Of a DNA stretch of 22,096 bases, positions 3,631 to 19,956 are shown in pieces. Made by a program: the position numbers and the translations under genes. A model generated the notes under the pieces. That model was not told where the DNA came from. It ran no database searches and saw only the letters and a program-made list of their open reading frames with translations. How positions within the stretch are numbered: position 1 is the stretch's first letter; each line of letters starts with the position of its first letter. This DNA comes from a virus: IMG/VR virus record IMGVR_UViG_3300031673_000538, positions 1-22,096 of that record; one strand, given 5' to 3'.

Positions 3631-3852
3631 ATGGAAGAGATTTATTATTTTGAGGGAATACCTCAAGACTTATTTGAGCATCCGGAAAAGTTGCCGAAAG
3701 AAATTCAAAACATTATAGAAAAGTACATTGACGCAGACTTATTCACTTGCGATGACACTAAAGCGTTATTAAAAGAGTTACAGATAAACGGATATACTTT
3801 TGATTACGGATTGGATTGTCAACCATTTAATCTTAGACCCTATGGAAGATAA
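3631..3852 (+). CDS. hypothetical 73-residue protein
   Basis: MEEIYYFEGIPQDLFEHPEK, ending QPFNLRPYGR. Acidic, helical, with no membrane segment or known motif. It follows the preceding stop by 5 bases and overlaps the next gene's ATG (3842), so the group at 3464-4003 is probably translated from one message. Confidence 0.65.
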   Translation: MEEIYYFEGIPQDLFEHPEKLPKEIQNIIEKYIDADLFTCDDTKALLKELQINGYTFDYGLDCQPFNLRPYGR

Positions 3853-4003
3853 TCGTACCTTCAGAATTACATACGGAAATAAATTTGTATGCAACATGTT
3901 AGCCCGAACATCATACGAGGCTATTGACAGAACATACAACAAATACATTGTAGAGTTTCCGCATTTGTCAAGAAAAAAAATTAATGCAAAAAAACTAAGA
4001 TAA
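3842..4003 (+). CDS. hypothetical 53-residue basic protein
   Basis: I take the ATG at 3842 (MEDNRTFRITYGNKFVCNML) rather than an upstream in-frame ATG at 3800, because 3842 gives the short overlap typical of this window. The product ends in a lysine-rich tail (RKKINAKKLR). No family recognised. It is the last gene before the strong promoter at 4005-4036. Confidence 0.55.
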   Translation: MEDNRTFRITYGNKFVCNMLARTSYEAIDRTYNKYIVEFPHLSRKKINAKKLR

Positions 4004-7568: not shown

Positions 7569-7610
7569 TAAAATTAATTAAAAAATAGACAATATATAAA
7601 CATTTATTTG

Positions 7611-7618
7611 TATATTTG
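7611..7618 (+). promoter_or_regulatory. possible -7 promoter element
   Basis: TATATTTG matches the Bacteroidota -7 element TAnnTTTG in the 69-base gap before the gene at 7638. No good TTTG -33 element is found 19-21 bp upstream, so the call is weak. Confidence 0.35.
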
Positions 7619-7637
7619 CCTTTTAAAATCAAATAAA

Positions 7638-7940
7638 ATGAAAGAAGACGTGTTTAATCAGTATGTTGAGCGAGTGTTAGACCTGTTCAGTATAACAAAA
7701 GAAGAGTTTTACTCAAAGTCAAAAAAGAGAAACTTAGTAGACGCAAGACAATTAGTTTATTACTTGTGCGCTCAGAGACCTATTCAAATTACATACATTC
7801 AAAAGTTTATGTGCGAGAATGGTTATGATGTTGTACACTCAGTAATTATCCACGGTATCAAAGCTATGGACGGTAGAGTAAAAGAGGACAAAGATTATCA
7901 ATCAATAATTAAAGAACTCGATAGAGCAGTATTTATTTAA
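7638..7940 (+). CDS. DnaA domain IV-like DNA-binding protein
   Basis: 100 residues. SKKRNLVDARQLVYYLCAQ followed by ITYIQKFMCENGYDVVHSVIIHGI resembles the C-terminal DNA-binding domain of DnaA: a basic loop, the 'ARQ..MYL' helix, then a helix-turn-helix ending 'H.TV.HA'. The ATPase domain is absent, so it could bind DnaA-box-like sites without initiating replication itself, for instance marking the phage origin or competing with host DnaA. I start at the ATG at 7638, not at 7608, which lies in the promoter-like region. The recombination genes follow immediately. Confidence 0.7.
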   Translation: MKEDVFNQYVERVLDLFSITKEEFYSKSKKRNLVDARQLVYYLCAQRPIQITYIQKFMCENGYDVVHSVIIHGIKAMDGRVKEDKDYQSIIKELDRAVFI

Positions 7941-7961: not shown

Positions 7962-8678
7962 ATGGAAAAATCAAAAACAATTTTTGAGTTATTGTCGTCC
8001 GTTAATGTGAACGACAAGGTAGAGAAAAAAAGCAACCTAACCTACTTATCTTGGGCTTGGGCTTGGGCAGAAGTAAAAAAAGTATGTCCTGACGCATCCT
8101 ATCAAGTAAAAAGAGACCCTATTACACAAAAACCTTATTTTTATGATGAGAATCTTGGCTATATGGTTATGACGGAAGTGACCATAGAGGGTAAGACTTT
8201 AGAGATGTGGTTACCTGTAATGGACGGAGCCAACAAGTCTATGATGAATAAGCCATACACTTACAAAGGCAACGCTTGGATTAACGGAAAAAAAACCGAG
8301 ATAGAAAAAATAGTTGAAGCTGCCACCATGTTTGACATTAACAAAACATTGATGAGATGTTTGACTAAAAACTTGGCTATGTTTGGAATGGGACTTTACA
8401 TTTATGCAGGAGAAGATTTACCTGAGGTAGAAAGCACACCTATACAGGCACCAACAAGAGCACAAACTCAAGCACAACCTAAACAGACTGAGATTAAAGC
8501 TGAGTTAATTGAACTTAAAAAAGGAACAGAGAATTGGGACAAGGTAATTGCCTACGTTACAGCTAACAAATCATTAGGTATTGAATCTATAGGAAAACAG
8601 CTTCTTAGAAAATACAAAGTGACACCTGCTTTAAAGAAAGAAATCGCTAACTTAATAACACAAGCAAATGCAGATTAA
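7962..8678 (+). CDS. Sak-type single-strand annealing protein (DUF1071/SSAP_Sak)
   Basis: 238 residues. The N-terminal 150 residues carry the pattern of the DUF1071/SSAP_Sak family: LTYLSWAWAWAEVKKVCPDA, then GYMVMTEVTIEGKTLEMWLP, MNKPYTYKGNAWIN and INKTLMRCLTKNLAMFGMGL YIYAGEDLP. Such proteins coat single-stranded DNA and anneal complementary strands during phage recombination. A Gln/Ala/Pro-rich linker (about 160-178) separates a short helical tail (about 180-238), as in related annealing proteins. The stop overlaps the start of the exonuclease gene, and an SSB-like gene lies further downstream, forming a phage recombination module. Confidence 0.85.
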   Translation: MEKSKTIFELLSSVNVNDKVEKKSNLTYLSWAWAWAEVKKVCPDASYQVKRDPITQKPYFYDENLGYMVMTEVTIEGKTLEMWLPVMDGANKSMMNKPYTYKGNAWINGKKTEIEKIVEAATMFDINKTLMRCLTKNLAMFGMGLYIYAGEDLPEVESTPIQAPTRAQTQAQPKQTEIKAELIELKKGTENWDKVIAYVTANKSLGIESIGKQLLRKYKVTPALKKEIANLITQANAD

Positions 8679-9408
8679 TCAAGTATTAGAGCTTTTAAAA
8701 GACGACAGAGAGTATTACTCAGGAATAGGTAAAAATTACTTATCAAATTCAGACATTGGAACGTTATTAAATAATCCTAAATTTTTTGGAGTACCAAGAG
8801 AAGATAACAAAGCGTTTATGGACGGAAGATATTTTCATCAACTTATACTTGAACCTGAAAAGGCAAAGGATTTAAAATTTGTTGATGCAAGTACACGTAC
8901 TACAAAAATCTACAAAGACTTTTGCGAAGAAAACAATTTACCTTTCTGTATGTTACAAAAAGAAAAAGAAGAGATTGAGAGACTTGTAGGGGTTATTAAT
9001 AGTAACATTGCTTTCTTCGAAGAGATATACAAGAAAGGAAATCAATACGAAGTACCTGCTATTGCAGAGATTCAAGGTATGATGTGGAAAGGTAAGGCAG
9101 ACATTATTACAGACAATGCAATCATTGACTTAAAGACTACCTCAGACATTGATAAGTTCAAATGGAATGCTAAGAAGTATAACTATGACTCTCAATGTTA
9201 TATATACCAACAATTATTCGGTAAACCTTTAGTATTCTATGTAATAGACAAGACTACTGACATACTTGGTGTATTTAGACCTACTGAGGAATTTATTCAA
9301 TCAGGAGAAGCTAAGGTTGGTAGAGCTATCGAGGTATTCAATAAGTATTTCGGAGACAATCCAACTGACGACATTGAAAACTATTATATTGACGAATATT
9401 TATTTTAA
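8668..9408 (+). CDS. PD-(D/E)XK exonuclease, RecE/exonuclease VIII-like
   Basis: 246 residues. FMDGRYFHQLILEPEKAK is the 'G..fH..iLEP' segment of DUF3799/exonuclease VIII-like nucleases. The catalytic core follows: KGKAD (Asp at about 145), then IIDLKTTSD (Asp-Leu-Lys at about 152-154), and YDSQCYIYQQLFG (the usual Q..Y motif). It should resect double-stranded ends 5'-3' to make the strands used by the annealing protein encoded just upstream, with which it overlaps by 11 bases. It appears complete (ends IDEYLF). The first integron-like cassette begins within 46 bases of its stop. Confidence 0.85.
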   Translation: MQINQVLELLKDDREYYSGIGKNYLSNSDIGTLLNNPKFFGVPREDNKAFMDGRYFHQLILEPEKAKDLKFVDASTRTTKIYKDFCEENNLPFCMLQKEKEEIERLVGVINSNIAFFEEIYKKGNQYEVPAIAEIQGMMWKGKADIITDNAIIDLKTTSDIDKFKWNAKKYNYDSQCYIYQQLFGKPLVFYVIDKTTDILGVFRPTEEFIQSGEAKVGRAIEVFNKYFGDNPTDDIENYYIDEYLF

Positions 9409-9425
9409 AATTTTGAGCGATGGCA
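9402..9425 (+). repeat. 24-bp leader repeat, copy 1
   Basis: This segment, ending TTGAGCGATGGCA, matches 10647-10670 at 22 of 24 positions. Here its ATG (9420) opens a 20-codon ORF that runs into the methyltransferase start at 9454. At the second copy the ATG is the start of another methyltransferase. It marks the left edge of the first cassette cluster. Confidence 0.75.
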
Positions 9426-9453
9426 AATCACCAATTTAAACAACAAAAACAAG

Positions 9454-10023
9454 ATGAAAAAATACGATATAATTTATGCTGACCCTGCGTGGGGATATAA
9501 AAGCAGCGGAACTCCTGCTGCAAAAAGACCTTGCTTAGATAGGGGGGAAAAACCGCATAGTGTTAATCACTATTACGATACATTAACCCCGAAAGAAGTT
9601 GCAGAATTACCTATTAAAAACTTGGCTGCTGATAATGCGGTTTTGTTTATGTGGGTTACGAATCCGCTTTTACCTGAAACCTTTGAAGTAATGAAATCTT
9701 GGGGCTTTAAGTATAAGACTTGCATAACGTGGCACAAAGAAAGAGGAAAAGGTATGGGGTATTGGTTTAGAGGACATACAGAACATCTGTTATTTGGTGT
9801 AAGAGGTAAGGTTAAAGCTTTTAGATGCTTAGAACATAACATCAAGAAAATTAAAGTTGGGAAGCATAGTGAAAAACCCCAAGAGTTTAGGGATATGATA
9901 GAACTTGCAGCAGGTCACTTAGGAGATAAGATAGAACTTTTTGCAAGACAGACTTATGATGATTGGGATGCGTGGGGCAATGAGGTTGAAAATAGCATTG
10001 ACCTTAGTGAATATTACACCTAA
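9454..10023 (+). CDS. MT-A70-type adenine methyltransferase (orphan)
   Basis: 189 residues. MKKYDIIYADPAWGYKSSGT contains the motif IV variant DPAW (DPPW in the family) close to the N-terminus. ELPIKNLAADNAVLFMWVTN, WGFKYKTCITWHKERG and FRGHTEHLLFGVRG follow the usual order of phage MT-A70/MunI-like N6-adenine DNA methyltransferases, and KHSEKPQEFRDMIE is the typical late segment. No restriction enzyme is nearby, so it is probably an orphan enzyme protecting phage DNA. The stop codon TAA (10021-10023) lies inside the R''-like box CCTAAC of the attC-like site that follows, an arrangement common in integron cassettes. Confidence 0.85.
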   Translation: MKKYDIIYADPAWGYKSSGTPAAKRPCLDRGEKPHSVNHYYDTLTPKEVAELPIKNLAADNAVLFMWVTNPLLPETFEVMKSWGFKYKTCITWHKERGKGMGYWFRGHTEHLLFGVRGKVKAFRCLEHNIKKIKVGKHSEKPQEFRDMIELAAGHLGDKIELFARQTYDDWDAWGNEVENSIDLSEYYT

Positions 10024-10148
10024 CGTTGAGTATAAAAATTGAAGCGTGTAAGTACGCAAAAATTTAGAATAAACAAATACATTAACAAACAAGCAGAAGC
10101 CTTATAAACAGCCTAAAATAGCTTTTGTTTTTATACATTGTTAGGCAC
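10017..10148 (+). other. attC-like recombination site 1
   Basis: Imperfect palindrome about 132 bp long. CCTAAC (10019-10024), a short unpaired spacer and TATAAAAA (10031-10038) on the left mirror TTTTTATA (10128-10135), a spacer and GTTAGG (10140-10145) on the right. This is the R''-L''...L'-R' layout of attC, with the cleavage-type G-TT at 10140/10141. The middle carries a small hairpin GCGT...ACGC (10043-10056). The size is within the 57-141 bp range known for attC. The left 22 bases nearly equal those of site 4. Confidence 0.75.
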
Positions 10149-10157
10149 AGTTAACTT

Positions 10158-10502
10158 ATGATACCGACACTTAGAACAATTACTAGAAAATCTAAAATGG
10201 GTTTTGGAAAATATAAAGAAAAGACCGTTCAAGAAATGCTAGACCTTAGACGCACTCTTGACTTAATTTCTGCATATTATAAACTGACTTCTATAAATTA
10301 CCAAGAAGATATACTAACTGAATTAAAAATAACTGAACAATACAGGATTGAAAAACCATCTGCAAATAAAGAAATGTATTATAAATTTCTTAATGAAAAT
10401 GGATATAAATTAAGGTCAAGAGGGCAAGGTGCTGACAAACTTAAAAAACAAACCAAAGCCCTTTCCAAAAGACAGTTGCAAGGAATGAACCACGGTCGTT
10501 AA
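10158..10502 (+). CDS. cassette-borne hypothetical protein
   Basis: 114 residues, basic. KSKMGFGKYKEKTVQEMLDL resembles the 'FGKYKGKT' opening of DUF3820-like and related phage proteins, but the rest (LDLISAYYKLTSINYQEDIL, RSRGQGADKLKKQTKALSKR) is not a family I can name. It fills one cassette (10141-10590) on its own: it starts 17 bases after the left crossover point and stops 4 bases before the R''-like box of site 2. It has no promoter of its own that I can see and would be read from the operon. Confidence 0.7.
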   Translation: MIPTLRTITRKSKMGFGKYKEKTVQEMLDLRRTLDLISAYYKLTSINYQEDILTELKITEQYRIEKPSANKEMYYKFLNENGYKLRSRGQGADKLKKQTKALSKRQLQGMNHGR

Positions 10503-10506
10503 TTGT

Positions 10507-10597
10507 GCCTAACAAGGTATTTGCGAAGTTGCCCTTGCAGATACTTAAAATTAAGCACAAATGTTGATGGGCAATTTTGCAAATACCTTGTTATAGG
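10507..10597 (+). other. attC-like recombination site 2
   Basis: GCCTAAC (10507-10513) and the following AAGGTATTTGC...GTTGCCC (to 10534) pair almost perfectly with GGGCAATTTTGCAAATACCT (10569-10588), then TGTTATAGG (to 10597). A stem of about 25 bp in a 91-bp site. The outer boxes do not match: GCCTAAC on the left against GTTATAGG on the right. The left box matches the start of its own cassette (GTTAGGCAC, 10140-10148) and the right box matches the R'' box of the next cassette, as expected after attC recombination. Confidence 0.8.
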
Positions 10598-10646
10598 TAG
10601 TGCGGTTAATTAAGTATAAGGTTTGATACGAAGAACTAAAAAAAAG

Positions 10647-10670
10647 ATTTTAAAAAATTGAGCGATGGCA
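10647..10670 (+). repeat. 24-bp leader repeat, copy 2
   Basis: Partner of the repeat at 9402-9425 (22 of 24 identical). It contains the start codon (10665) of the methyltransferase gene. Confidence 0.75.
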
Positions 10671-11450
10671 GAAATTATTTTTGAGAAAAATAAAACATAC
10701 TTAGGAGATTGTTTGGATATAATGCCACAACTACCTGATGGAATATTTGATATGATTTTGTGTGATTTACCATACGGAACAACATCAAATAAATGGGATG
10801 CAGTAATACCATTTGATAAATTATGGGAGCAATACAACCGACTAATAAAGCCAAATGGAGTAATTGCACTTACAGCTTCACAGCCATTTTCAAGTGCATT
10901 GGTAATGAGCAATCCGAAGATGTTTAAGCACGAATGGATATGGATAAAAAACAGAGGTGGTAATTTTGCCAATACAGTAAGAGAGCCTTTTAAGGAACAC
11001 GAACAAGTGTTGATATTCAGTAATGGCAAATGGACTTACAATAAGCAGATGCAGGAACGAACAGGAGCAGGATTAGATAGAGTGAAGTATGATTTGAATT
11101 GGAGAAGCCAATCGGAAAATTACAGAGAGTTTGAAGGAAGGGAAGGACAGAAGCGACCTGAAATGAGAGTTCCTTCATCTTGGCAAAAATTCAACATAGA
11201 TACAAGCGGATTGCACCCTACAATTAAACCTGTGCCATTATTTGAATATTTGATAAAAACCTACACAAACGAAGGCGAATTGATATTAGATAACTGTGCA
11301 GGAAGCGGAACACTTGGAGAAGCGTGTTACAATACCAAACGAGATTATGTGATGATTGAGAAGGAAGAAAAGTATTTTGATTGTATTAAAAAGAGGGAGG
11401 AAAATTTTTTAAAATCTTTTTCACCGAAAACTTTATTCGATGCAGAATAG
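10665..11450 (+). CDS. beta-class DNA methyltransferase (N4/N6), orphan
   Basis: 261 residues. The catalytic motif IV DLPYGTTSNKWD (about residues 34-45) precedes the AdoMet motif I region (LILDNCAGSGTLGEACYNTK, about 205-224), followed by YVMIEKEEKYFDC. Motif IV before motif I makes it a beta-class amino-methyltransferase of the 'DNA methylase N-4/N-6' family. HPTIKPVPLFEYLIK is the usual motif X/late segment. No cognate nuclease is visible. It is the only gene of cassette 10591-about 11467 and probably modifies phage DNA against host restriction. Its recognition sequence cannot be inferred. Confidence 0.88.
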   Translation: MAEIIFEKNKTYLGDCLDIMPQLPDGIFDMILCDLPYGTTSNKWDAVIPFDKLWEQYNRLIKPNGVIALTASQPFSSALVMSNPKMFKHEWIWIKNRGGNFANTVREPFKEHEQVLIFSNGKWTYNKQMQERTGAGLDRVKYDLNWRSQSENYREFEGREGQKRPEMRVPSSWQKFNIDTSGLHPTIKPVPLFEYLIKTYTNEGELILDNCAGSGTLGEACYNTKRDYVMIEKEEKYFDCIKKREENFLKSFSPKTLFDAE

Positions 11451-11458
11451 TAGCATTA

Positions 11459-11497
11459 CCTATAACGGTTTAGGTATGGTGCGTTGAACACCAACCT
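11459..11497 (+). other. attC-like site 3, collapsed
   Basis: The R''-like CCTATAAC (11459-11466) is followed almost at once by GTTTAGGT (11468-11475), leaving no room for the usual stem. A hairpin GGTATGGTG/CACCAACC lies just after it (11474-11495, one bulge) and resembles the inner part of site 4. It is probably a shortened or recombined attC. CCTATAAC is the exact complement of the box that begins this cassette (GTTATAGG, 10590-10597). Confidence 0.5.
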
Positions 11498-11529
11498 TGA
11501 TAAAAGAGATTAAGTTAAAAATTATACAA

Positions 11530-11757
11530 ATGGCTGATACAAAGAAAGAACAATGCACTATACCTGATGTTAGGTGTAGTTTTTATGAGTTTGCAAAGCA
11601 GTACGTGACCATAAAAGATGAAGAAGGAAATGAACAAAAGTTTAGTGATAGACAATTGAACGAGATTAAAGAAATGGAAGACATGATGAACAAAGGATAC
11701 GAACTTAAATTTGTTCATTTACGCAGAGGCACGCAGTTACGTTGGGTTAAGAAATAA
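11530..11757 (+). CDS. cassette-borne hypothetical protein
   Basis: 75 residues, MADTKKEQCTIPDVRCSFYE..., ending FVHLRRGTQLRWVKK. The second half (FSDRQLNEIKEMEDMMNKGY, then a basic R-R-G-x-x-x-R-W end) resembles small uncharacterised phage proteins with a helical body and an RGG/RW tail. Function unknown. I use the ATG at 11530 because the in-frame ATG at 11497 lies next to the collapsed attC-like site. It is the only gene of its cassette and is followed 6 bases after its stop by CCTAAC of site 4. Confidence 0.65.
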   Translation: MADTKKEQCTIPDVRCSFYEFAKQYVTIKDEEGNEQKFSDRQLNEIKEMEDMMNKGYELKFVHLRRGTQLRWVKK

Positions 11758-11761
11758 ATTA

Positions 11762-11825
11762 CACCTAACGCTGAGTGTATGGTGTCGTTTGAGGCACGAA
11801 AATGCACTATACATATTGTTGTGTG
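11762..11825 (+). other. attC-like recombination site 4
   Basis: CACCTAAC (11762-11769), a spacer and TGTATGGTG (11776-11784) mirror CACTATACA (11805-11813), a spacer and GTTGTGTG (11818-11825). 64 bp long with an unpaired central spacer of unequal length on the two sides, as in attC. The left end shares 20 of 22 bases with site 1. The right box (GTTGTGTG) does not match the left box, as for site 2. After it, GTAGTGCGG (11825-11833) repeats the bases at 10596-10604 that begin the methyltransferase cassette. Confidence 0.7.
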
Positions 11826-11860
11826 TAGTGCGGATTATTAACAATAAAACTCTTTGCTTA

Positions 11861-11898
11861 GCCTCAGAGGTAGAGAGTTGGTTTAAATAGACTGAGGC
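11861..11898 (+). other. inverted repeat upstream of the SSB-like gene
   Basis: GCCTCAG (11861-11867) pairs with CTGAGGC (11892-11898). It lies in the 95-base gap between site 4 and the SSB-like gene and may be a leader hairpin or operator. Parts look like a tRNA D-arm (CTCAGAGGTAGAG), but no acceptor or T arm exists. Confidence 0.4.
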
Positions 11899-11920
11899 GT
11901 AATTTAAAATACATAGAAAA

Positions 11921-12247
11921 ATGGCACAAGACCAAGAGAAGATTTTCGCAGACGGATTTATCTTCAAAAGAAACCCAAAAGCACCACAATTTGTAGTGGG
12001 CAGAGTATCAATGAAAGTAGAGGAAGCTATCGCTTTCTTAAAGACCCACGAGAAGAATGGTTGGGTAAATGTGGATATTAAAGAAGCTCGAAGTGGTAAT
12101 CACTACATTGAGTTAGACACGTTCGTTCCAAGCAATGATATTACGGTTGACAATTACAATGCTTCAAAACAGTCTCCAACTAAACCACCGGCAACGGCAG
12201 AAATGCCTCAGATAGCAGGAGATAAAGATGAGGATTTACCATTCTAA
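11921..12247 (+). CDS. SSB-like single-stranded DNA-binding protein
   Basis: 108 residues. The body (ADGFIFKRNPKAPQFVVGRV, then WVNVDIKEARSGNHYIELDT) is strand-rich and fits a small OB-like or phage SSB-type fold, though not a standard SSB family by eye. A low-complexity Pro/Thr/Ala linker (about 84-97) leads to the acidic C-terminus DKDEDLPF. That ending closely resembles the DDDIPF tip of bacterial SSBs, which recruits replication and repair proteins. It lies after the Sak-exonuclease pair and before the primase-helicase, where an SSB is expected. A strong terminator follows. Confidence 0.72.
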   Translation: MAQDQEKIFADGFIFKRNPKAPQFVVGRVSMKVEEAIAFLKTHEKNGWVNVDIKEARSGNHYIELDTFVPSNDITVDNYNASKQSPTKPPATAEMPQIAGDKDEDLPF

Positions 12248-12254
12248 GCCCAAT

Positions 12255-12286
12255 AAAAAAAGGGGAATTAACGTTCCCCTTTTTTA
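12255..12286 (+). terminator. Rho-independent terminator after the SSB-like gene
   Basis: GGGGAA (12262-12267) pairs with TTCCCC (12274-12279) around a 6-base loop, flanked by an A-tract (12255-12261) and a T-tract (12280-12285) that extend the stem and give the U-run. It starts 8 bases after the SSB stop and should end the operon carrying the recombination genes and first cassettes. With the A-tract it may also work on the other strand. Confidence 0.9.
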
Positions 12287-12316
12287 GCTTTGGATTATGT
12301 CAACAATTTATCTCCC

Positions 12317-12354
12317 TATATATATATATATATTCTTTCTTCTTCTTCTTTTTT
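12317..12354. repeat. (TA)8 run followed by a TTC-rich tract
   Basis: Eight TA units (12317-12332) are followed by TTCTTTCTTCTTCTTCTTTTTT-like pyrimidine sequence to 12354, within the 214-base gap between the SSB-like gene and the primase-helicase. The rest of the gap is A/T-rich without an ORF. Easily melted DNA next to replication genes could be an unwinding element, but no iterons were seen to support an origin. Confidence 0.5.
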
Positions 12355-12461
12355 ATTTAATATTATTTTATTTTTAAAATTAACAAAAAAGACAGAAGTA
12401 TTAGTAATCAGTAAGTTAAGTTTTAAAAAATAACATATAAACGACATATAAATAACATAAA

Positions 12462-14858
12462 ATGGCACATTCAGTAACCATATTTCAAAATATAAGAGAT
12501 ACAGATACCCCTTTTTACAGAGATATTAACGTGATTCTCAATAGAATAAAGGACGGAGCAGGGGCTACCAAGGATATTGTTAAGAAAATTAGATTAGAGA
12601 AAGATAAGTCTGAGCGTAACGAAATAAAGAAGCAGTTGCCTGCAATTTGTTTTAGTGGTAAATTTACAAAAAGAACAGATTCATCACTATCTGAGCATTC
12701 AGGTATCATCTGTTTGGACTTTGATGGGTATCAAAAGCAAAAAGAATTATTACAGGACAAGGAAACATTATCTAAAAATAAATATGTTTATTCTGTATTC
12801 ATTTCTCCATCAGGAAACGGATTAAAAGTATTGGTTAAGATACCTGCTGACCCCGACAACCATACAAACTATTTTAATAGCCTTGAAAAGTATTTTAATT
12901 CCCCTTATTTTGACAAGACAAGTAAAAATATCAGTCGAGTGTGTTACGAGAGCTATGACCCACTTCTTCATATTAACCCAAATTCTTCGATTTGGGACAC
13001 GATTGAAGAGCCGGAGTACGTAGAGGTTAACCGAACAAGAGATAAGGCTACAATTCCAATTACAGACGAAAATAAGATAGTTGAAATACTTGTTAAGTGG
13101 TGGGAGAAAAAATTCCCTATGCAAAGTGGACAAAGAAATCAAAACGCATACGTTCTTGCAATGGCATTTAATGACTTTGGAATAAACAAAAGTTTGGCAG
13201 CATACGTTCTTAATCAATTTGCATCAGACGATTTTAAATTATCAGAGATTGCAACAACAATTGATTCTGCTTATAAAAATACATCAAGCTTTGGAACTAA
13301 GTATTACGAAGATGAAGAGCGTATAAATAGTATTAAAGCTAAATTAAGACGAGGAGCTTCTAAAAAAGATATTAAATACCAACTTCAAGAAAGTGATTTA
13401 GATGATGATATTATTGATTCTGTATTATCTAGGATTGAGGATGAAAATGCAAAGATGACTTTTTGGACTAAGAACGACAAGGGGATTATAAAAATAATTC
13501 ATGTGTTATTCAAGCAGTTTTTAGAAGATAATGGTTTCTATAAATTTTGTCCTGAGGGAGGAAGAAACTATGTGTTTGTAAAAGTTACAAACAATCTAAT
13601 AGACCATACATCAGAAAAGGAAATTAAGGATTTTGTTTTGAATTACTTGATTGATTTAGATGACGTTTCTATTTATAATTATTTTGCAGACAATACTAGA
13701 TTTTTTAAAGAAGAGTTTTTATCGTTGTTATCTACAATTGAAATTTATTTTATAGCAGATACAAAGGATACTTCTTATTTGTATTATAAAAACTGTGCAG
13801 TTCAGATAACAAAAGATTCAATAAAAACGATAGACTATTTGGATTTGGGAGGTTATGTTTGGAAAGACCACGTTATTGATAGGGTTTTTACTATTGGAGA
13901 AGTAACAGATGCTTGTGATTTTAGAAAGTTTGTATCAAACATTAATGGTTCAGATGAGCATAGAGTGAAATCAATGGAAAGTACATTAGGTTTTTTAATG
14001 CATGGATATAAGAACTTATCATTTTGCCCTGCAGTTATTCTAAATGATGAAGTAATTAGTGATAATCCTGAGGGAGGAACAGGAAAAGGATTGCTTATGA
14101 ATGCTCTTAGCAAAATGAAAAAAGTAGTTACCATTGACGGCAAGTCTTTTACATTTGAAAGAAGTTTCGCTTATCAGTTAGTATCTGCAGATACTCAGAT
14201 ATTAGTTTTTGATGATGTTAAAAAGCATTTCGATTTCGAGAGGTTATTTTCTGTAGTAACAGAAGGATTAACTCTTGAGAAGAAAAATAAAGACGCTATC
14301 AAGATACCTTTTTCAAAGTCCCCTAAGATTGCCATAACCACAAATTATGCGATTAAAGGTTCAGGAAATTCATTTGCAAGACGTAAGTGGGAGTTGGAGT
14401 TACATCAGTATTATAGAAAGAATTTTACACCACAAGATGAGTTTGGAAAGCTAATGTTTGGAGATTGGAATGATGATGATTGGATGCAATTTGACAACTA
14501 TATGATTCAATGCTTAAAAAATTACTTGAATACAGGATTAGTAAAAACAAACTTTGTAAATTTAAAAACTAGACACTTATCTCAAGAAACTTCTCACGAG
14601 TTTATCGAGTGGGTAGGATTGGTTGATAACATAGACAGAAGTAGTATTATGCCTTTAAATGTTAGGCTTTATAAAAATGAGCTTTATAATAATTTTGTTG
14701 AAGAGTACCCCGACTATAGTTCGAGAGGAAAGATGTCTATAAGTAGAACTAAGTTTTACAGATGGCTATCTCACTATGTAAATTACAGAGAGGATATTGA
14801 ATCAGACCAAGACAGAGACCATATTGGAAGATGGATAATACTTAAAAAAATACCGTAA
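12462..14858 (+). CDS. primase-helicase: BT4734/VirE-like N-terminus plus SF3-type helicase
   Basis: 798 residues. Residues about 1-190 match the BT4734/VirE N-terminal domain (a primase-type fold): HSGIICLDFDGYQKQKELLQ and SVFISPSGNGLKVLVKIP. A second part (about 195-285) resembles the helical domain that follows in such proteins. The C-terminal helicase has GGTGKG (Walker A, about 538-543), QILVFDDVKKHF (Walker B, about 579-590) and KIAITTNYAIKG (sensor/motif C, about 621-632), then SFARRKWELELHQYY, all typical of phage D5-like/SF3 helicases. It should unwind DNA and may prime replication. Priming is inferred, since I do not see all catalytic acids with certainty. Confidence 0.88.
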   Translation: MAHSVTIFQNIRDTDTPFYRDINVILNRIKDGAGATKDIVKKIRLEKDKSERNEIKKQLPAICFSGKFTKRTDSSLSEHSGIICLDFDGYQKQKELLQDKETLSKNKYVYSVFISPSGNGLKVLVKIPADPDNHTNYFNSLEKYFNSPYFDKTSKNISRVCYESYDPLLHINPNSSIWDTIEEPEYVEVNRTRDKATIPITDENKIVEILVKWWEKKFPMQSGQRNQNAYVLAMAFNDFGINKSLAAYVLNQFASDDFKLSEIATTIDSAYKNTSSFGTKYYEDEERINSIKAKLRRGASKKDIKYQLQESDLDDDIIDSVLSRIEDENAKMTFWTKNDKGIIKIIHVLFKQFLEDNGFYKFCPEGGRNYVFVKVTNNLIDHTSEKEIKDFVLNYLIDLDDVSIYNYFADNTRFFKEEFLSLLSTIEIYFIADTKDTSYLYYKNCAVQITKDSIKTIDYLDLGGYVWKDHVIDRVFTIGEVTDACDFRKFVSNINGSDEHRVKSMESTLGFLMHGYKNLSFCPAVILNDEVISDNPEGGTGKGLLMNALSKMKKVVTIDGKSFTFERSFAYQLVSADTQILVFDDVKKHFDFERLFSVVTEGLTLEKKNKDAIKIPFSKSPKIAITTNYAIKGSGNSFARRKWELELHQYYRKNFTPQDEFGKLMFGDWNDDDWMQFDNYMIQCLKNYLNTGLVKTNFVNLKTRHLSQETSHEFIEWVGLVDNIDRSSIMPLNVRLYKNELYNNFVEEYPDYSSRGKMSISRTKFYRWLSHYVNYREDIESDQDRDHIGRWIILKKIP

Positions 14859-14874
14859 GTAAATTCAAATTATA

Positions 14875-15291
14875 ATGAATAATGAGGATATTATAGAAAG
14901 AGTTCTTGGTTATAATAATTATGAAATGTGGCAGAAATGTGAACTTCTGAGAAAAGTAATAAACATATCTGTAGAAAGAAAAGAGGGTAGAGGTAAAAAT
15001 GTTAGAGTCATAAAAGAACTTAAATATAATACATCTAGTAAAGTTAGAAGAACAATAGAACGAAGTTGTGAATATTATAAAAAATTACACGAAGAAAACA
15101 TGGATAAAAAAAAGCAAGTAGGAAGTTTTGAAATAACTAAATACAGAATTGAGAATGTAAATGGAGAACCTAAGATAGTAATAGATATGGTAAAGGTACT
15201 AGACACAAATGGTCAGTACATTAAGTTTGCTAGTTTAGAAAAAGTAATTGATTACTTAGAAAAATATCCTGTTAAATTTAAGAAATTATGA
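14875..15291 (+). CDS. hypothetical protein between the helicases
   Basis: 138 residues, basic and helical (MNNEDIIERVLGYNNYEMWQ..., then SVERKEGRGKNVRVIKELKY), with an alpha/beta C-terminal half (FEITKYRIENVNGEPKIVID). No motif recognised. It sits 16 bases after the primase-helicase, and its stop overlaps the ATG of the SF2 helicase (15288). A small replication accessory or helicase partner is plausible from context only. Confidence 0.7.
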   Translation: MNNEDIIERVLGYNNYEMWQKCELLRKVINISVERKEGRGKNVRVIKELKYNTSSKVRRTIERSCEYYKKLHEENMDKKKQVGSFEITKYRIENVNGEPKIVIDMVKVLDTNGQYIKFASLEKVIDYLEKYPVKFKKL

Positions 15292-16517
15292 TTCAGTTTA
15301 GAGATTATCAAACAGACATAATTAATAAAGGCTCTCAAATTTTATTAGAGTATGGGTTTGTATATCTTGCAATGGAGGTTCGTACAGGAAAAACATTGAC
15401 GAGCCTCGGTATTGCAGATACGTTAGGTGTAAGTAATGTTTTGTTCTTGACTAAGAAAAAAGCAATATCAAGTATTGAGGCAGACTACCAAAGGCTTTCT
15501 CCTTTTTATGCTCTCACTGTTATTAATTACGAAAGCATGCATAAACTTACTGATATTAAATGGGATTTGATTATTTGCGATGAGTCACACAGTTTAGGTG
15601 CGTTTGCAAAGCCAAACAAAAGAGCACAGCAGGTAAAAGAGCTTATCAGAATAACTAAAGCTAAAGTAATTTTGCTTTCAGGAACACCAACTCCTGAGTC
15701 TTACTCTCAGATGTATCATCAGGTTTATGGCATACCAAAAAATCCTTTTAAAGAATTTAAAAATTTCTACAGATTTTGTGATAAATTTGTAAATGTAAAA
15801 ACCAAAATGATAAATGGTTTAATGATGAATGACTACTCCGGTGGCAAGGAGGAAATAATAAAAGCCATGGAGCCATTTATGATTAATTACACACAAGAAG
15901 AGGCAGGGTTTGTTGCTAAAATAACTGAGGAGGTCTTTGAGGTAGAGCTAAAAGAATCAACCTATAAGTTGATTAAAAAGTTAACAAGAGATTTGGTTGT
16001 TGAAGGAAAAGAAGAGGTTATTTTAGGGGATACTCCGGTAAAGTTAATGATGAAATTGCATCAGTTGTACTCAGGAACCGTTAAATTCGAGAGTGGTAAT
16101 TCGATGGTATTGGATACATCTAAAGCAGAGTACATAAAAGAGACTTGGGAGGGTTGTCAGATAGCGATATTTTACAAGTTTAAAGAGGAGCTTGAGGCAT
16201 TAAAGCAAGTGTTTGGAGACGAACTAACAACAGAGCTTAGTGTCTTTGAAGACACACATAAGAACATAGCGTTGCAGATAGTCTCAGGGCGTGAAGGAAT
16301 ATCTTTGAAGAAGGCAGAGTATCTTGTGTACTACAACATAGATTTCAGTGCAACAAGTTATTGGCAATCGAGAGACAGAATGACAACCAAGGACAGACCT
16401 GAGAATGAAGTGTTTTGGATATTCTCTAAAAGAGGTATTGAGCACGAGATTTACAAAGCAGTAACCAAAAAGAAGGATTATACATTAGCACACTTTAAAA
16501 AAGATTTTTATTTATGA
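15288..16517 (+). CDS. SF2 (SNF2/DEAD-type) helicase
   Basis: 409 residues. Q-motif-like FRDYQ at the N-terminus; Walker A variant YLAMEVRTGKTLTSLG (about 27-42); Walker B DLIICDESHSLG (DESH at about 97-100); motif III LLSGTPTPES (about 126-135); and motif VI ATSYWQSRDRMTTKDRP (about 355-371). These are the SF2 motifs in phage SNF2-like helicases, which are shorter than cellular Swi2/Snf2 proteins. It is likely a DNA translocase or helicase in phage replication or recombination. One copy of the palindromic repeat lies inside (16240-16255). Overlaps of 4 bases at both ends (ATGA) show translational coupling. Confidence 0.9.
   Translation: MIQFRDYQTDIINKGSQILLEYGFVYLAMEVRTGKTLTSLGIADTLGVSNVLFLTKKKAISSIEADYQRLSPFYALTVINYESMHKLTDIKWDLIICDESHSLGAFAKPNKRAQQVKELIRITKAKVILLSGTPTPESYSQMYHQVYGIPKNPFKEFKNFYRFCDKFVNVKTKMINGLMMNDYSGGKEEIIKAMEPFMINYTQEEAGFVAKITEEVFEVELKESTYKLIKKLTRDLVVEGKEEVILGDTPVKLMMKLHQLYSGTVKFESGNSMVLDTSKAEYIKETWEGCQIAIFYKFKEELEALKQVFGDELTTELSVFEDTHKNIALQIVSGREGISLKKAEYLVYYNIDFSATSYWQSRDRMTTKDRPENEVFWIFSKRGIEHEIYKAVTKKKDYTLAHFKKDFYL
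16240..16255. repeat. GTGTCTTTGAAGACAC palindrome, copy 5
   Basis: Perfect copy inside the SF2 helicase gene, identical to the intergenic copy at 2118 (also followed by ACA). It encodes V-F-E-D-T. Confidence 0.6.
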
Positions 16518-16729
16518 CACCAAAAGAAAAAGCAGAATATTTAGTTAGAAATATGGAATTTCAAATTACGTATGTTTACGACCCAACGGAATCTCAGGCA
16601 TATGATAGTGCTAAAAAATGTGCACTAATAGCAGTTGATGAGATAATTAATACATTAGACCATCTACCGATAACATTTGGAGTAAAAGCATATTGGAAAA
16701 AAGTTAAAAAAGAAATAGAAAAATTATGA
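16514..16729 (+). CDS. hypothetical small helical protein
   Basis: 71 residues. The opening MTPKEKAEYLVRNME and the segment AKKCALIAVDEIINTLDHL resemble a small protein common in Bacteroidota phages and prophages ('MTPKEKA..LV...CALIAVDEII'), with unknown function. It overlaps both neighbours by ATGA. Confidence 0.75.
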   Translation: MTPKEKAEYLVRNMEFQITYVYDPTESQAYDSAKKCALIAVDEIINTLDHLPITFGVKAYWKKVKKEIEKL

Positions 16730-17004
16730 AAAACAAGTTAGCAGGGAAGCACCCCTCTTATGACAAGTTAGGTATGTCAGAAGAAAGAAAGAAAAAAAAG
16801 TTAGCATACGATACCAAGTATCAAGCTACTGAGGAACGTAAAAAGTACAGAGCAAAGCTCAACAAAGCCAATCGAGAAGCCGGTACTTATGGTAATGAAG
16901 ATGGCTTAGATATGAGTCACACAAAGTCAGGAAAAGTTACAAAAGAAAAAGCTAAAACTAATAGAGCAAGAAACGGTCAGAACTCTAAAAGTACAAAAAA
17001 ATGA
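16726..17004 (+). CDS. basic protein related to degenerate phage HNH proteins
   Basis: 92 residues, very basic. YQATEERKKYRAKLNKANRE followed by DGLDMSHTKSGKVTKEKAKT and NRARNG resembles small marine-phage proteins of the form 'YH.S..Q...RA.RN.ARR...G...DG.DV.H..GN......NRS', which look like HNH domains. Here only one His of the catalytic pattern remains and the GN element is lost, so it may bind DNA without cutting. The assignment is by pattern memory only. Coupled to both neighbours by ATGA overlaps. Confidence 0.6.
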   Translation: MKNKLAGKHPSYDKLGMSEERKKKKLAYDTKYQATEERKKYRAKLNKANREAGTYGNEDGLDMSHTKSGKVTKEKAKTNRARNGQNSKSTKK

Positions 17005-17669
17005 CAACAACAGACTCTAATGTATTAAACATGAATATACCTAACCTAAAATTAAAGGTTAGAAGAAGTTGGTTAACTAAGAATGATAGCGACAATTTTA
17101 CTTTTGATAATTGCTATGCTTTTGCTATACAGAGCGTATCAGGAAAGATACTTACCTTTCACATAATGACAGATTATGGTATGCTAAGAAGTCGTGTGCC
17201 AATTTCAGAGTTGTTCTTTGAGAAACCTAAAAAAGATATTCCTGCAGACTTTAAACAGCTTTGGGATTGCTTTAGTGAGAATGTATCTGTTACAGAATAT
17301 TTTTATCTCGCTGAAAAAAGATGCAAGGTAATTTTAAAAGACAAGTCTTTTGTTTGGGCTACATACCTATTTACAGTAGATTGGTTTCATAACCCATATA
17401 GCGATGAGCCAACTGACTATAAATGTGGACACGTATTATTGGCTGACGATGGTTATCTTTTATGTCAACCAAACAATAGAATATATTGGAAGGACTCTAA
17501 CTTCATAACTAATGAGTTCCCCGTAAACCCTAAAGATTTTAAGGTTGATACAGAGCTTAAATGCGTTGAATCAGAGAGCGACAGATGGGTAAGTTCCGAT
17601 GGAGACTCTTTTTATTACGATATAAACGAAATAAAAGAAGACAATGACAGAGGCTCAGATACAGTCTAA
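17001..17669 (+). CDS. conserved phage hypothetical protein
   Basis: 222 residues, strand-rich and Trp/Tyr-rich. YLFTVDWFHNPYSDEPTDYK and CGHVLLADDGYLLCQPNNRI YWKDSNFIT form a block that I associate with uncharacterised proteins of aquatic phages. Two repeated beta-type halves are possible (residues 15-75 and 105-175). No catalytic residues are evident. It overlaps VRR-NUC by 26 bases. Confidence 0.75.
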   Translation: MTTTDSNVLNMNIPNLKLKVRRSWLTKNDSDNFTFDNCYAFAIQSVSGKILTFHIMTDYGMLRSRVPISELFFEKPKKDIPADFKQLWDCFSENVSVTEYFYLAEKRCKVILKDKSFVWATYLFTVDWFHNPYSDEPTDYKCGHVLLADDGYLLCQPNNRIYWKDSNFITNEFPVNPKDFKVDTELKCVESESDRWVSSDGDSFYYDINEIKEDNDRGSDTV

Positions 17670-17886
17670 AAAAATTAAAGAGCTTGAGGCTCAGGGATAC
17701 TATGTTATTAAGTTAATATTGACTAATAAAAAAGGTATCCCTGACTTGATAGCAATACCTAAAGATTCAGATGTCTTGTTTGTGGAGGTAAAAGGACCGA
17801 AAGGCTCTATCCGTCCAATGCAAGACTATAGGATTGAAGAACTAAAAAAACACGGAGTTAAAGTTAAAATACACAAACCTATTTAA
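17644..17886 (+). CDS. VRR-NUC domain nuclease
   Basis: 80 residues, the size of a stand-alone virus-type replication-repair nuclease. The motifs are GIPDLIAIPKD (Asp of PD) and VLFVEVKGPKGSIRPMQ (E-x-K, then the 'G..R..Q' signature). Such phage enzymes cut branched or flap DNA structures during replication and recombination. The start overlaps the preceding gene, so it belongs to the replication operon. Its stop codon lies inside the R''-like ATTTAAC of attC-like site 5, so the second cassette cluster joins the backbone directly at the end of this gene. Confidence 0.88.
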   Translation: MTEAQIQSKKIKELEAQGYYVIKLILTNKKGIPDLIAIPKDSDVLFVEVKGPKGSIRPMQDYRIEELKKHGVKVKIHKPI

Positions 17887-17945
17887 CGAAAACGTATAAG
17901 ATACGTTGCCTTTTTCGGCAATGGATTTTATACAGTGTTACCTAC
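17881..17945 (+). other. attC-like recombination site 5
   Basis: ATTTAAC (17881-17887), a spacer and GTATAAGATACGTTGCC (17894-17910) pair with GGCAATGGATTTTATAC (17917-17933), a spacer and GTTACCTAC (17937-17945) across a 6-base loop. The stem has about 16 pairs with one mismatch, and the spacers are unequal (GAAAAC against AGT). The right box complements the R''-like box of the following cassette (GTAGGTAA, 18623-18630), not the left box of this site. Confidence 0.7.
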
Positions 17946-17964
17946 TGTACTAAAAAAATGATTT

Positions 17965-18618
17965 ATGACTGAACCTAATATAGAATTACTAAACATTGAT
18001 TGCTTGCACTACTTAAAGCAATGCGAGGATAAACAATTTGACCTTGCAATAGTTGACCCTCCTTATGGTGTGCAATACGCAAGAGGTAAAAATGGATATG
18101 GCAATACAACAAAGAATTTACCTAAATTGACTGATGTTGATTGGGATAAAAGCACACCTACTGACGAATATTGGCAAGAATTATTTAGAGTTTCTAAAAA
18201 TCAAATTGTTTGGGGTGGCAATTATTTTGCTTTACCTGTAAGTAAGTGTTGGATAGTATGGGATAAAATAGGTGAGATGGAACTTAAAAACCCATTTGCA
18301 GATTGTGAACTTGCTTGGACTTCTTTTACTAAAGTTGTAAAAAAGAAAACAATTAGACAACAAGGATTTATAAAAGACACTAAAGATAAGGTTAGAATAC
18401 ACCCAACTCAAAAACCTACTGAACTTTATAAATGGGTTTTGGATAATTATGCTGAACCTAAAAGCAAAATACTTGACACACATTTGGGTGGCGGAAGCAT
18501 TGCGATTGCTTGCTATGATTTAGGTTTTGACCTAACAGCTTGCGAGATAGATAAAACTTATTTTGATGGTGCAAGCAAAAGGCTAAAAGATAGAAAAAAT
18601 GCACCTACCCTTTTTTAG
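17965..18618 (+). CDS. beta-class DNA adenine methyltransferase, orphan
   Basis: 217 residues. LAIVDPPYGVQYARGKNGYG carries motif IV (DPPY, about 31-34). FRVSKNQIVWGGNYFALPVS is a typical middle segment. KVRIHPTQKPTELYKWVLDN precedes motif I, ILDTHLGGGSIAIACYDLGF, then DLTACEID. The order IV before I marks the beta class. It is the third unrelated methyltransferase gene in the window and again the only gene of a cassette (17938 to about 18647). It has no cognate nuclease and probably protects phage DNA. The stop lies inside the terminal inverted repeat of the cassette. Confidence 0.88.
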   Translation: MTEPNIELLNIDCLHYLKQCEDKQFDLAIVDPPYGVQYARGKNGYGNTTKNLPKLTDVDWDKSTPTDEYWQELFRVSKNQIVWGGNYFALPVSKCWIVWDKIGEMELKNPFADCELAWTSFTKVVKKKTIRQQGFIKDTKDKVRIHPTQKPTELYKWVLDNYAEPKSKILDTHLGGGSIAIACYDLGFDLTACEIDKTYFDGASKRLKDRKNAPTLF

Positions 18619-18663
18619 TATTGTAGGTAATATACGGCTATGAAGCGTTGCCGATAAATACGC
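18611..18663 (+). other. attC-like site 6, diverged
   Basis: GTAGGTAA (18623-18630) acts as the R''-like box. Inside, CGGC (18635-18638) pairs with GCCG (18650-18653), or alternatively AGCGT (18644-18648) with ACGCT (18659-18663). The right R' box is not clear; G-TT at 18647-18649 is a candidate. Together with the start of the cassette (17938-17957), the 20 bases at 18611-18630 form a terminal inverted repeat with 18 of 20 matches. Confidence 0.5.
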
Positions 18664-18683
18664 TATAACTTTCAAATAATAAC
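18647..18683 (+). repeat. direct repeat flanking the gene at 18688, copy 1
   Basis: The segment starting GTTGCCGATAAATAC and ending TCAAATAATAAC repeats at 18923-18955 with about 28 of 33 positions equal and a 4-base insertion. The two copies bracket the gene at 18688-18933. Confidence 0.65.
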
Positions 18684-18687
18684 TAAA

Positions 18688-18933
18688 ATGAGTAAAGAAA
18701 ACGAACCTTTAGGAAAGCACGAAAACGGCAATGAATTTATAGCCGTTGTTAGCACACGTTCTTTCAACAAATTAGAAATGTTAGCAGAAGATTTAGAATG
18801 TGTAAAAATGTGGTTAGATGATAAAAAAGCACCGAAAACAGATAGTGATGGAAATGAATATAGTGTTGTTGGAAGAATACAATGTTTGTTGAATGTGTGC
18901 CAACGTATCGAGGCGAAGGTTAGTTGCCTATAA
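18688..18933 (+). CDS. cassette-borne hypothetical protein
   Basis: 81 residues. MSKENEPLGKHENGNEFIAV opens a soluble acidic protein; VSTRSFNKLEMLAEDLECVK is helical, with three cysteines near the C-terminus (CLLNVCQRIEAKVSCL). No family recognised. It is bracketed by a 33-37 bp direct repeat, the second copy of which covers its last codons, and is followed by attC-like site 7. This marks it as an inserted unit. Confidence 0.6.
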   Translation: MSKENEPLGKHENGNEFIAVVSTRSFNKLEMLAEDLECVKMWLDDKKAPKTDSDGNEYSVVGRIQCLLNVCQRIEAKVSCL

Positions 18934-18955
18934 ACACTAACCATCAAATTATAAC
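18923..18955 (+). repeat. direct repeat flanking the gene at 18688, copy 2
   Basis: Partner of 18647-18683. Begins GTTGCCTATAAACAC and ends TCAAATTATAAC. It overlaps the stop codon of the gene (18931-18933) and the left part of attC-like site 7. Confidence 0.65.
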
Positions 18956-18996
18956 AAGACCTTGCAAGGCAATTAACTTTAGCTATTGTTAGGCAC
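18926..18996 (+). other. attC-like recombination site 7
   Basis: GCCTATAAAC on the left (18926-18935) and GTTAGGCAC on the right (18988-18996) are R''/R'-like boxes, with a central perfect palindrome CCTTGCAAGG (18960-18969). Arm pairing is weaker than in sites 1, 2, 4 and 5. The right box is identical to that at 10140-10148. Confidence 0.5.
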
Positions 18997-19004
18997 TTTT
19001 AATT

Positions 19005-19244
19005 ATGGGAATATTAATAACAATGCAACCGTATAAAAAATTCTTTAAAAGATGGAAGCACAAACTTTTTGAATGCCCTACATTTTGGAAATCATTATGG
19101 AGAAATATGACGTTTAGAAATGCCTCGTTTAGTTGCCCAAGATGTCATAAACATTACCATTGTTATTGGGATGGAAACGATGTAACAGGACACGGCATAG
19201 ACTATTGCAATAAGTGTGCTAAGGAATTAGAGGCTAATAATTAG
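19005..19244 (+). CDS. zinc-ribbon protein
   Basis: 79 residues: a basic, aromatic N-terminal part (YKKFFKRWKHKLFECPTFWK) followed by CPRCHKHYHCYWDGNDVTGH and GIDYCNKCAKELEANN. The CxxC...CxxC pairs (about residues 45-48 and 69-72) form a zinc ribbon. It probably binds nucleic acid or a partner protein. The gene begins 17 bases after the crossover point of site 7. No clear R''-like box follows its stop, so it may be the last unit of the cluster, fused to the backbone. Confidence 0.7.
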   Translation: MGILITMQPYKKFFKRWKHKLFECPTFWKSLWRNMTFRNASFSCPRCHKHYHCYWDGNDVTGHGIDYCNKCAKELEANN

Positions 19245-19298
19245 TTGTCCCAAAAAGTAACTAAATTGGAGACAGAATTAAATAAAAAAAACAACATA

Positions 19299-19766
19299 AT
19301 GGAATCATTAAAAAGAATAGTAAACGATATTTTTCTAACAGACTTAGATGATAAGTCAAGGATTAGAAAAAATGTAGATGCAAGAAAGGCTTATTCAAAA
19401 ATATTAAGAGACGTTGGATTTTCTTTTCAGTATATAGGTAATTCAATAAATAAAAATCACGCATCAATAATACATTATTGTCGTTCTTGTGATTATCTTT
19501 TCTTATATGACAATGTTTTTCAAAAAAAATTCAACTTGGCTAAAAGACAGTTTTTATTAGAAAACAATAATTACAAACCAACATCAAATGAAGACATATA
19601 CACCATTGCAATACAGTTAAGAGAAGAGCTTGACTCAGTGTTGTTTGAAAAAAATAAAATGTTAAATGATTTTGTTGACCATTTAGAGAATCATGTAATA
19701 GAAAAAGGATATATGCCTAATATAGATTATTGTAGAAATAAAATATTACCATTGTTTAGCGGTTAA
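19299..19766 (+). CDS. DnaA domain IV-like protein with helical tail
   Basis: 155 residues. SRIRKNVDARKAYSKILRDV followed by FSFQYIGNSINKNHASIIHY corresponds to the DnaA C-terminal domain ('R..ARQ..MYL', then 'IG...GRDHSTV.H'), with N-H-A-S-I-I-H in place of the DnaA signature. A helical extension (about 85-155) follows. No AAA+ domain. It may bind DnaA-box-like DNA. I place the start at the ATG 19299; the frame continues upstream to a TTG at 19245, which would add a short coiled-coil segment but requires a rare start. It is the second DnaA-IV-like protein of this window (see 7638). Confidence 0.65.
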   Translation: MESLKRIVNDIFLTDLDDKSRIRKNVDARKAYSKILRDVGFSFQYIGNSINKNHASIIHYCRSCDYLFLYDNVFQKKFNLAKRQFLLENNNYKPTSNEDIYTIAIQLREELDSVLFEKNKMLNDFVDHLENHVIEKGYMPNIDYCRNKILPLFSG

Positions 19767-19776
19767 ATTTTAAATT

Positions 19777-19956
19777 ATGGAAGAGCAAAAAAGAGCCGAG
19801 AGAATATCTCGAAGAATAGAAGAGTACCACGTAGTACTTACGGACATCTATGAAAAATTAGTTGACCGAGAATTTAAGTCTGTCCAAAAGGACGCTCAGT
19901 TCTTAATTATGGAATTACGCTATATTTTAAAATCAATAGAAGAAGATGACTTTTGA
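19777..19956 (+). CDS. hypothetical 59-residue helical protein
   Basis: MEEQKRAERISRRIEEYHVV, ending LKSIEEDDF. Highly charged and helical throughout, probably a coiled-coil or small helical hairpin. It starts 11 bases after the preceding stop with leader TTTTAAATT and overlaps the next gene by 11 bases, which supports coupling to it. Function unknown. Confidence 0.65.
   Translation: MEEQKRAERISRRIEEYHVVLTDIYEKLVDREFKSVQKDAQFLIMELRYILKSIEEDDF

Follow-up and report, generated by a model that had tools for sequence, protein, structure and literature searches.

Phage cassette arrays and the window

In the cassettes of integrons, such as class 1 integrons and the chromosomal integrons of Vibrio and Shewanella, the attC site follows the gene on the same strand and presents R and L boxes around a hairpin, an AAC/GTT crossover and complementary boxes at the start and the end of the cassette. 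Clusters of integron gene cassettes without integrase (CALINs) also exist in phages: Qi et al. (2023, PMC9892861) published 17 of them, including one with two methyltransferase genes in the Bacteroidota phage P12002L, and showed that IntI1 recombined one P12002L site in E. coli. The same article reports divergent attC directions in P12002L and names phage P12002S only in its reference list. Here we analyze a window of 22,096 bases, the IMG/VR virus record IMGVR_UViG_3300031673_000538, which carries two arrays of attC-like sites and single genes. A sequence-only reading of the first array had considered integron-type cassettes in phages as hardly described, a view made outdated by these 17 phage CALINs. 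The window arrays are a CALIN-type system of this known sort, with two additional properties: a reversed polarity of the attC sites and direct evidence of cassette gain or loss. Most likely, the window holds two CALINs composed of hairpin-then-gene cassettes and served by an integron-type recombinase supplied by the host.

Compared with integron cassettes, the window likewise presents R and L boxes, some of them off the consensus, as well as hairpins, the AAC/GTT crossover and complementary ends, but its attC sites lie before the gene and on the other strand, with no integrase and no proven attI. Like the P12002L CALIN, to which it is linked by a covariance model (R2, described below) and by homologous hairpins, it has attC-type sites between methyltransferase genes and genes without known function, in a phage that probably infects Bacteroidota; it differs in being an uncultivated podovirus-like genome with two arrays and an exact natural single-cassette difference. 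CALINs require at least two close attC sites, and those of the first array lie within 1.9 kb and those of the second within 1.2 kb. As for the parts of a complete integron, no intI was found and no attI was recognized in the window.

Array 1 (10015-11827) consists of four attC-like hairpins (A-D) between co-directional genes, and array 2 (17878-18997) of three (E-G). Read in the gene direction, a site opens with a left box that ends in AAC and closes with a right box that starts with GTT; between them come, in order, a short spacer, the left arm, the loop and the right arm. The features are the following (ORF, open reading frame):

9454..10023, plus strand: MT-A70-type DNA methyltransferase (Pfam PF05063, 8.9e-26), end box TACACCTAAC at 10015-10024
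10015..10149, minus strand: attC-like site A, boxes 10015-10024 and 10140-10149; R' is the left box of the gene direction, the attC reading on the minus strand
10140..10513, plus strand: orf114 unit (ORF 10158-10502, 114 aa, no known function), start box GTTAGGCACA, end box TGTGCCTAAC
10504..10599, minus strand: attC-like site B, a near-perfect hairpin, boxes 10504-10513 and 10590-10599
10514..11466, plus strand: cassette missing from a near-identical phage (L002), made of hairpin B, the N6/N4 methyltransferase 10665-11450 (MT10665; PF01555, 7.4e-25) and end box TACCTATAAC
11457..11578, minus strand: attC-like site C, boxes 11457-11466 and 11569-11578; its loop holds the start codon (11530) of the next ORF
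11569..11769, plus strand: unit of ORF 11530-11757 (75 aa, no known function), boxes GTTAGGTGTA and TACACCTAAC
11760..11827, minus strand: attC-like site D, boxes 11760-11769 and 11818-11827
11818..11847, plus strand: stump left by a lost cassette, placed after site D and before the native SSB leader, a 91% match to a cassette start in contig L278
17878..17946, minus strand: attC-like site E, boxes 17878-17887 and 17937-17946; the stop codon of the VRR-NUC gene (17644-17886) and the left box overlap
17937..18631, plus strand: unit with the N6/N4 methyltransferase 17965-18618 (MT17965; PF01555, 2.4e-12), boxes GTTACCTAC and GTAGGTAAT
18622..18757, minus strand: attC-like site F, boxes 18622-18631 and 18748-18757; the next ORF has its start codon (18688) and about 20 of its N-terminal codons within this site
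18748..18904, plus strand: unit of ORF 18688-18933 (no known function), boxes GTTAGCACAC and GTGTGCCAAC
18895..18997, minus strand: attC-like site G, boxes 18895-18904 and 18988-18997, followed by ORF 19005-19244

The four palindromes that the sequence-only reading had placed after the genes ending at 10023, 10502, 11450 and 11757 all exist, above chance, as sites A-D, and the box-bounded units bear out its claim of one gene per unit. Two corrections apply to it: the right box of site C lies within the coding frame of the next gene, and array 2 had escaped it.

Cassette gain or loss and the polarity of the sites

The record IMGVR_UViG_3300031578_000906 (L002) is the same phage, 99.99% identical: the window from 9905 to 22096 minus 10514-11466 equals L002 with 1 mismatch in 11,239 bp. 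At the junction the two flanks have only TAAC in common (GTTA when read on the minus strand). The breakpoint falls inside this TAAC, in agreement with the crossover of integrons at YYYAA|C, or G|TTRRRY in terms of R'. An assembly error is unlikely to be the origin of this difference, since TAAC is the sole sequence common to the two flanks. A unit of the same kind distinguishes the Polaribacter phage isolates P12002L and P12002S, which are both lytic, were isolated on the same host strain according to Kang et al. (2015, PMC4615864) and have backbones 99.6% identical. In P12002S an extra hairpin, gene and end box (...GCTAAC) are inserted after GCAGGTAAC. Each end of this insertion lies precisely at AAC|, as do two more breakpoints between these phages. 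The two arrays of P12002L (L292; about 29150-29260 and 37190-37310, minus strand) end in the same sequence of about 65 bp (AACGGATAAAACAAGTTTTACC...) right after the last AAC box, whereas P12002S has it once; this sequence is a possible phage-borne attI-like site. A comparable repetition was seen in contig L372, where a stretch of about 178 bp follows the end box of both arrays (2755-2932 and 3731-3908) and resembles a shared array-start sequence.

In both pairs of phages, the moved units carry the upstream hairpin and break at the left boxes. The covariance model R1, built from gammaproteobacterial attCs of arrays with a known integrase, matches a site of contig L273 (24.9 bits, E-value 0.003) and, weakly, sites of L290 and L259 (E-values 0.17 and 0.27), in all three cases on the strand opposite the genes. 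Canonical attCs present AA after R'' in 23 of 32 and GC before R' in 20 of 32; for the window sites, AA follows R'' in 5 of 7 on the minus strand and in 1 of 7 in the gene direction. Because the excision junctions, the strand matched by R1 and the bases flanking the boxes agree, the polarity of attC is reversed with respect to the genes and the hairpin moves with the gene downstream, in the window as in P12002L. The sequence-only reading was right about attC-like sites, but not about their direction, since they read against the genes and not along them as in integron cassettes. The integron cassette definition places attC at the 3' end of the gene and on the same strand, whereas here it is 5' and on the opposite strand. 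Folding energy adds weak evidence: the gene-direction strand is the more stable one in 14 of 15 phage sites, but of 30 canonical attCs only 17 have the bottom strand as the more stable one.

Could these be ordinary cassettes of normal polarity, in which each attC belongs to the upstream gene, and which entered together as one block of a bacterial integron? The box and hairpin layout and the stop codons near the left box would fit. We regard this explanation as improbable, and it is already contradicted by the junctions: in the L002 as in the P12002S comparison, the upstream hairpin goes with the moved unit and the downstream hairpin stays behind. Moreover, R1 matches the sister sites on the opposite strand only, and bacterial integrons of the sampled phylum have the normal polarity, with attC after the gene, unlike the phage arrays.

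A search of the open-access literature, with subscription papers and preprints outside its range, found neither reversed polarity nor natural differences by a single cassette described for phages, and within this literature both appear new. Whether phage cassettes move in nature was open after the work of Qi et al., and single-cassette differences at the expected crossover make this traffic directly testable. Reversed polarity would change the reading and the expression of phage arrays; this family of sites may escape attC models that were trained on proteobacteria.

Box pairing, exchangeable units and the evidence for the sites

In each of the five complete units, the start box pairs with the end box over 10 nt, with complementarity at 33 of the 35 variable positions overall; among 120 pairings, the true one alone reaches this value. 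The complementarity is 10/10 for orf114, MT10665 and orf86, 8/10 for MT17965 and 9/10 for the 18688 unit. Units bounded by the boxes recur in contigs unrelated to the window. The orf114 unit is found in L364 at 94% nucleotide identity, with the match confined to the stretch between and including the two boxes. It is also found in L363, where both boxes are changed in concert to GTTGTGCGTA and TACGCACAAC; across the two contigs its identity is 92-94%, and in each it comes with other hairpins. Such a concerted change may arise in the circular form, where the two boxes make one palindrome. Similarly, L374 matches the unit of ORF 11530-11757 (window 11534-11769) at 93% nucleotide identity. An MT-A70 homologue in L246 has sites on both flanks and a start box GTTAGGTGTA, while the MT-A70 gene of the window has lost its start box and 5' hairpin; site G is an 83% match to the site following MT-A70 in L246.

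Hairpins also behave as coding modules. Two window genes have their start codon inside a hairpin, ORF 11530-11757 in site C and ORF 18688-18933 in site F. Contig L371 encodes a protein 93% identical to that of ORF 18688-18933, between other hairpins and with a different N-terminus, whereas L372 has hairpin F (93% match) fused in frame to a different gene. Since L371 and L372 pair gene units and hairpins differently, the two are separately exchangeable. That a hairpin always stays with its gene is contradicted by L363, L364, L371 and L372, in which units and hairpins were recombined separately.

These observations bear on a second explanation, in which the hairpins are modules of their own and an unknown enzyme moves the gene units, each of them a small transposon-like element ending in 10-bp terminal inverted repeats. 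Three gene units indeed have perfect 10-bp inverted ends, units recur without their hairpins and hairpin F recurs with another gene. However, no target is duplicated, the flanks of the junction having TAAC alone in common; the ends vary among units and change in concert, unlike fixed transposon ends; and the hairpin moved together with the gene both between the window and L002 and between the two P12002 phages. We give this explanation little credit. The same holds, to a slightly greater degree, for homologous or microhomology recombination between similar intergenic hairpins by the phage Sak annealing protein: the Sak and exonuclease genes adjoin array 1, family motifs are common to the hairpin arms and one P12002L/S breakpoint lies within a hairpin arm, but the clean junctions have about 4 nt (TAAC) in common and fall at the same box position every time. 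Intergenic terminators or RNA-processing hairpins without a role in recombination would explain hairpins at gene ends, but a clear folding advantage over shuffles is confined to B and E, two hairpins contain start codons and the presence/absence junctions and cross-genome units are left unexplained, so that this very remote explanation is already contradicted by the junctions.

Site B is the top-ranked inverted repeat of the 22 kb (25-nt arms, 92% complementary), with a folding z of about -6 to -7 against shuffles. Folding is clearly above shuffles for B and E only, and folding energy alone fails to single out A, C and D (z -0.3 to -0.9). A matrix and the covariance model R2 were both trained on 15 sites from other contigs; these sites were gathered by the left-arm motif of A and D, and the right arms are the independent part of the result. 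The matrix scores 58.9 for A and 48.5 for D, while 100 dinucleotide shuffles reach 26.1 at most. R2 matches site D with 45.8 bits (E-value 8e-10) and, weakly, site E with 14.5 bits, and it also picks up a site of the same family in P12002L. It fails to find site A, probably owing to the long loop of A, and for this reason the matrix scan was run with a variable loop. IMG/VR has 36 stretches with the left-arm motif CCTAACGYTGAGTRTA, and in 14 contigs besides L002 the right-arm motif follows it within 300 nt; the flanking genes have the same direction at 14 of 14 sites in other viral contigs, and the alignment of the 15 sites presents compensatory changes in the inner stem. With respect to the consensus boxes RYYYAAC and GTTRRRY, R' matches GTTRRRY at A, B, D and E and is off-consensus at C (GTTATAG), F (ATTACCT) and G (GTTGGCA), while R'' matches at A and C and deviates at B and D. 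Sites E, F and G are weaker and are supported by box pairing and cross-genome matches. Nothing in the window matched Rfam.

Several observations weigh against two CALINs exchanged by an integron-type recombinase. The canonical model R1 detects neither A-D nor the sites of P12002L; the sequence-only reading had named the absence of a model hit as a refutation, which applies in part, but R1 does find such sites in three sister contigs, on the opposite strand. No bacterial integron was found to hold these cassettes, for which that reading had proposed to look there, or attC sites of this type: the compact-site pattern, which does work on the loci, had no match in genome contigs or in 395 genomes of one phylum. 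Some hairpins are replaced around a constant gene unit between the window and L364, which a simple one-box exchange does not explain, and one P12002L/S breakpoint lies about 11 nt within a hairpin.

Recombinase, host and phage backbone

No integron integrase (TIGR02249) is present in the 22-kb window. Among 23 virus records that are related or bear such sites, with lengths of up to about 60 kb in some, and in 6 further records, no match exceeds the cut-off; one, in G017, is below it. In the sampled phylum, IntI is over the cut-off in 105 of 395 genomes (the phylum of G024 was assigned from its title, 'Flavobacteriales'). Because these phages have no integron integrase over the cut-off, the recombinase would come from the host. 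We propose that a cassette would consist of an attC hairpin and then its gene, and that a tyrosine recombinase of the integron type, presumably IntI supplied in trans, would fold the gene-direction strand into the hairpin and perform the exchange at RYYYAA|C in the box immediately upstream, by which a circle of hairpin and downstream gene would be excised or inserted. The cassettes would be read as part of the rightward phage operon, with some hairpins providing a start codon and N-terminus, and would deliver DNA methyltransferases and small genes without known function.

DNA methyltransferases account for three genes of the two window arrays. Phage methyltransferases can shield phage DNA from restriction. 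The orphan DNA methyltransferases of phages are such enzymes, and those of the window differ in being exchanged singly through site-specific recombination sites. Most likely, the array methyltransferases would protect the phage DNA from host restriction, as likewise suggested for the methyltransferases of phage CALINs (Qi et al. 2023, PMC9892861), and cassette exchange is a concrete means through which phages could replace one methyltransferase by another and so track host restriction. More tentatively, but quite conceivably, Bacteroidota phages may have their own lineage of inverted-polarity cassettes, with the hairpin first, recombined on the coding strand and able to give a start codon or N-terminus; genes and hairpins would be shuffled separately, possibly at a phage-borne attI-like site, and the arrays would form an early-operon store of exchangeable anti-restriction enzymes. 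A motif, TTGAGCGATGGCA (window 9415 and 10660), precedes both methyltransferases of array 1 and has variants before genes of other arrays (L270, L375); it is possibly a shared cassette leader.

The backbone genes encode a Sak annealing protein, an exonuclease, an SSB-like protein, a primase, a helicase, a VRR-NUC nuclease and a DnaA-like protein (Pfam, PHROGs). This backbone is common to many IMG/VR contigs and to the 60.9-kb circular MW202828.1 (Podoviridae sp.), and the order Sak-Exo-SSB-primase is kept in relatives. As the closest named matches of the primase belong to Flavobacterium, Polaribacter and Cellulophaga phages, the host is likely a member of the Bacteroidota. The neighbors of array 1 are:

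7962-8678: Sak annealing protein (Pfam, PHROGs), preceding the exonuclease
8668..9408, plus strand: exonuclease (PDDEXK, DUF3799 / exonuclease VIII-like; Pfam, PHROGs), left neighbor of array 1
11921..12247, plus strand: SSB-like protein with an acidic DEDLPF tail seen in the sequence, without a match in Pfam or PHROGs, right neighbor of array 1

In the relatives L003 and L083, the gap between the exonuclease and SSB-like genes is only about 90-100 bp. The comparison with related phages proposed by the sequence-only reading gave this near-empty gap and a near-identical phage without exactly one cassette, in keeping with an insertion between these genes, but the clean outer borders are missing: array 1 is eroded on both sides, with an MT-A70 gene without start box and a cassette stump after site D. 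Since L009 has a tRNA-like sequence (GGTTCGAATCC, about 1700-1760) in this gap, the latter looks like a general insertion spot. Array 2 has a native border, the VRR-NUC gene, and starts exactly on its stop codon (TTTAA|C), which would fit an insertion at a secondary site; in L003 and L004 the VRR-NUC gene directly adjoins the DnaA-like gene. The close relative L083 has an attC-type site (121-243) about 2 kb upstream of Sak, which makes a third position within this group of phages.

Two further features of the window were observed. The same phage encodes, at 7608-7940 and 19245-19766, two distinct small proteins that each have a DnaA C-terminal-like domain. The leader of the SSB-like gene (11848-11898) forms an H-type pseudoknot that is conserved in 21 sequences, with 94.6% of cells paired and changes on both sides in 12 of 16 pairs; it has no match in Rfam and resembles the autoregulatory pseudoknot in the gene 32 mRNA of T4.

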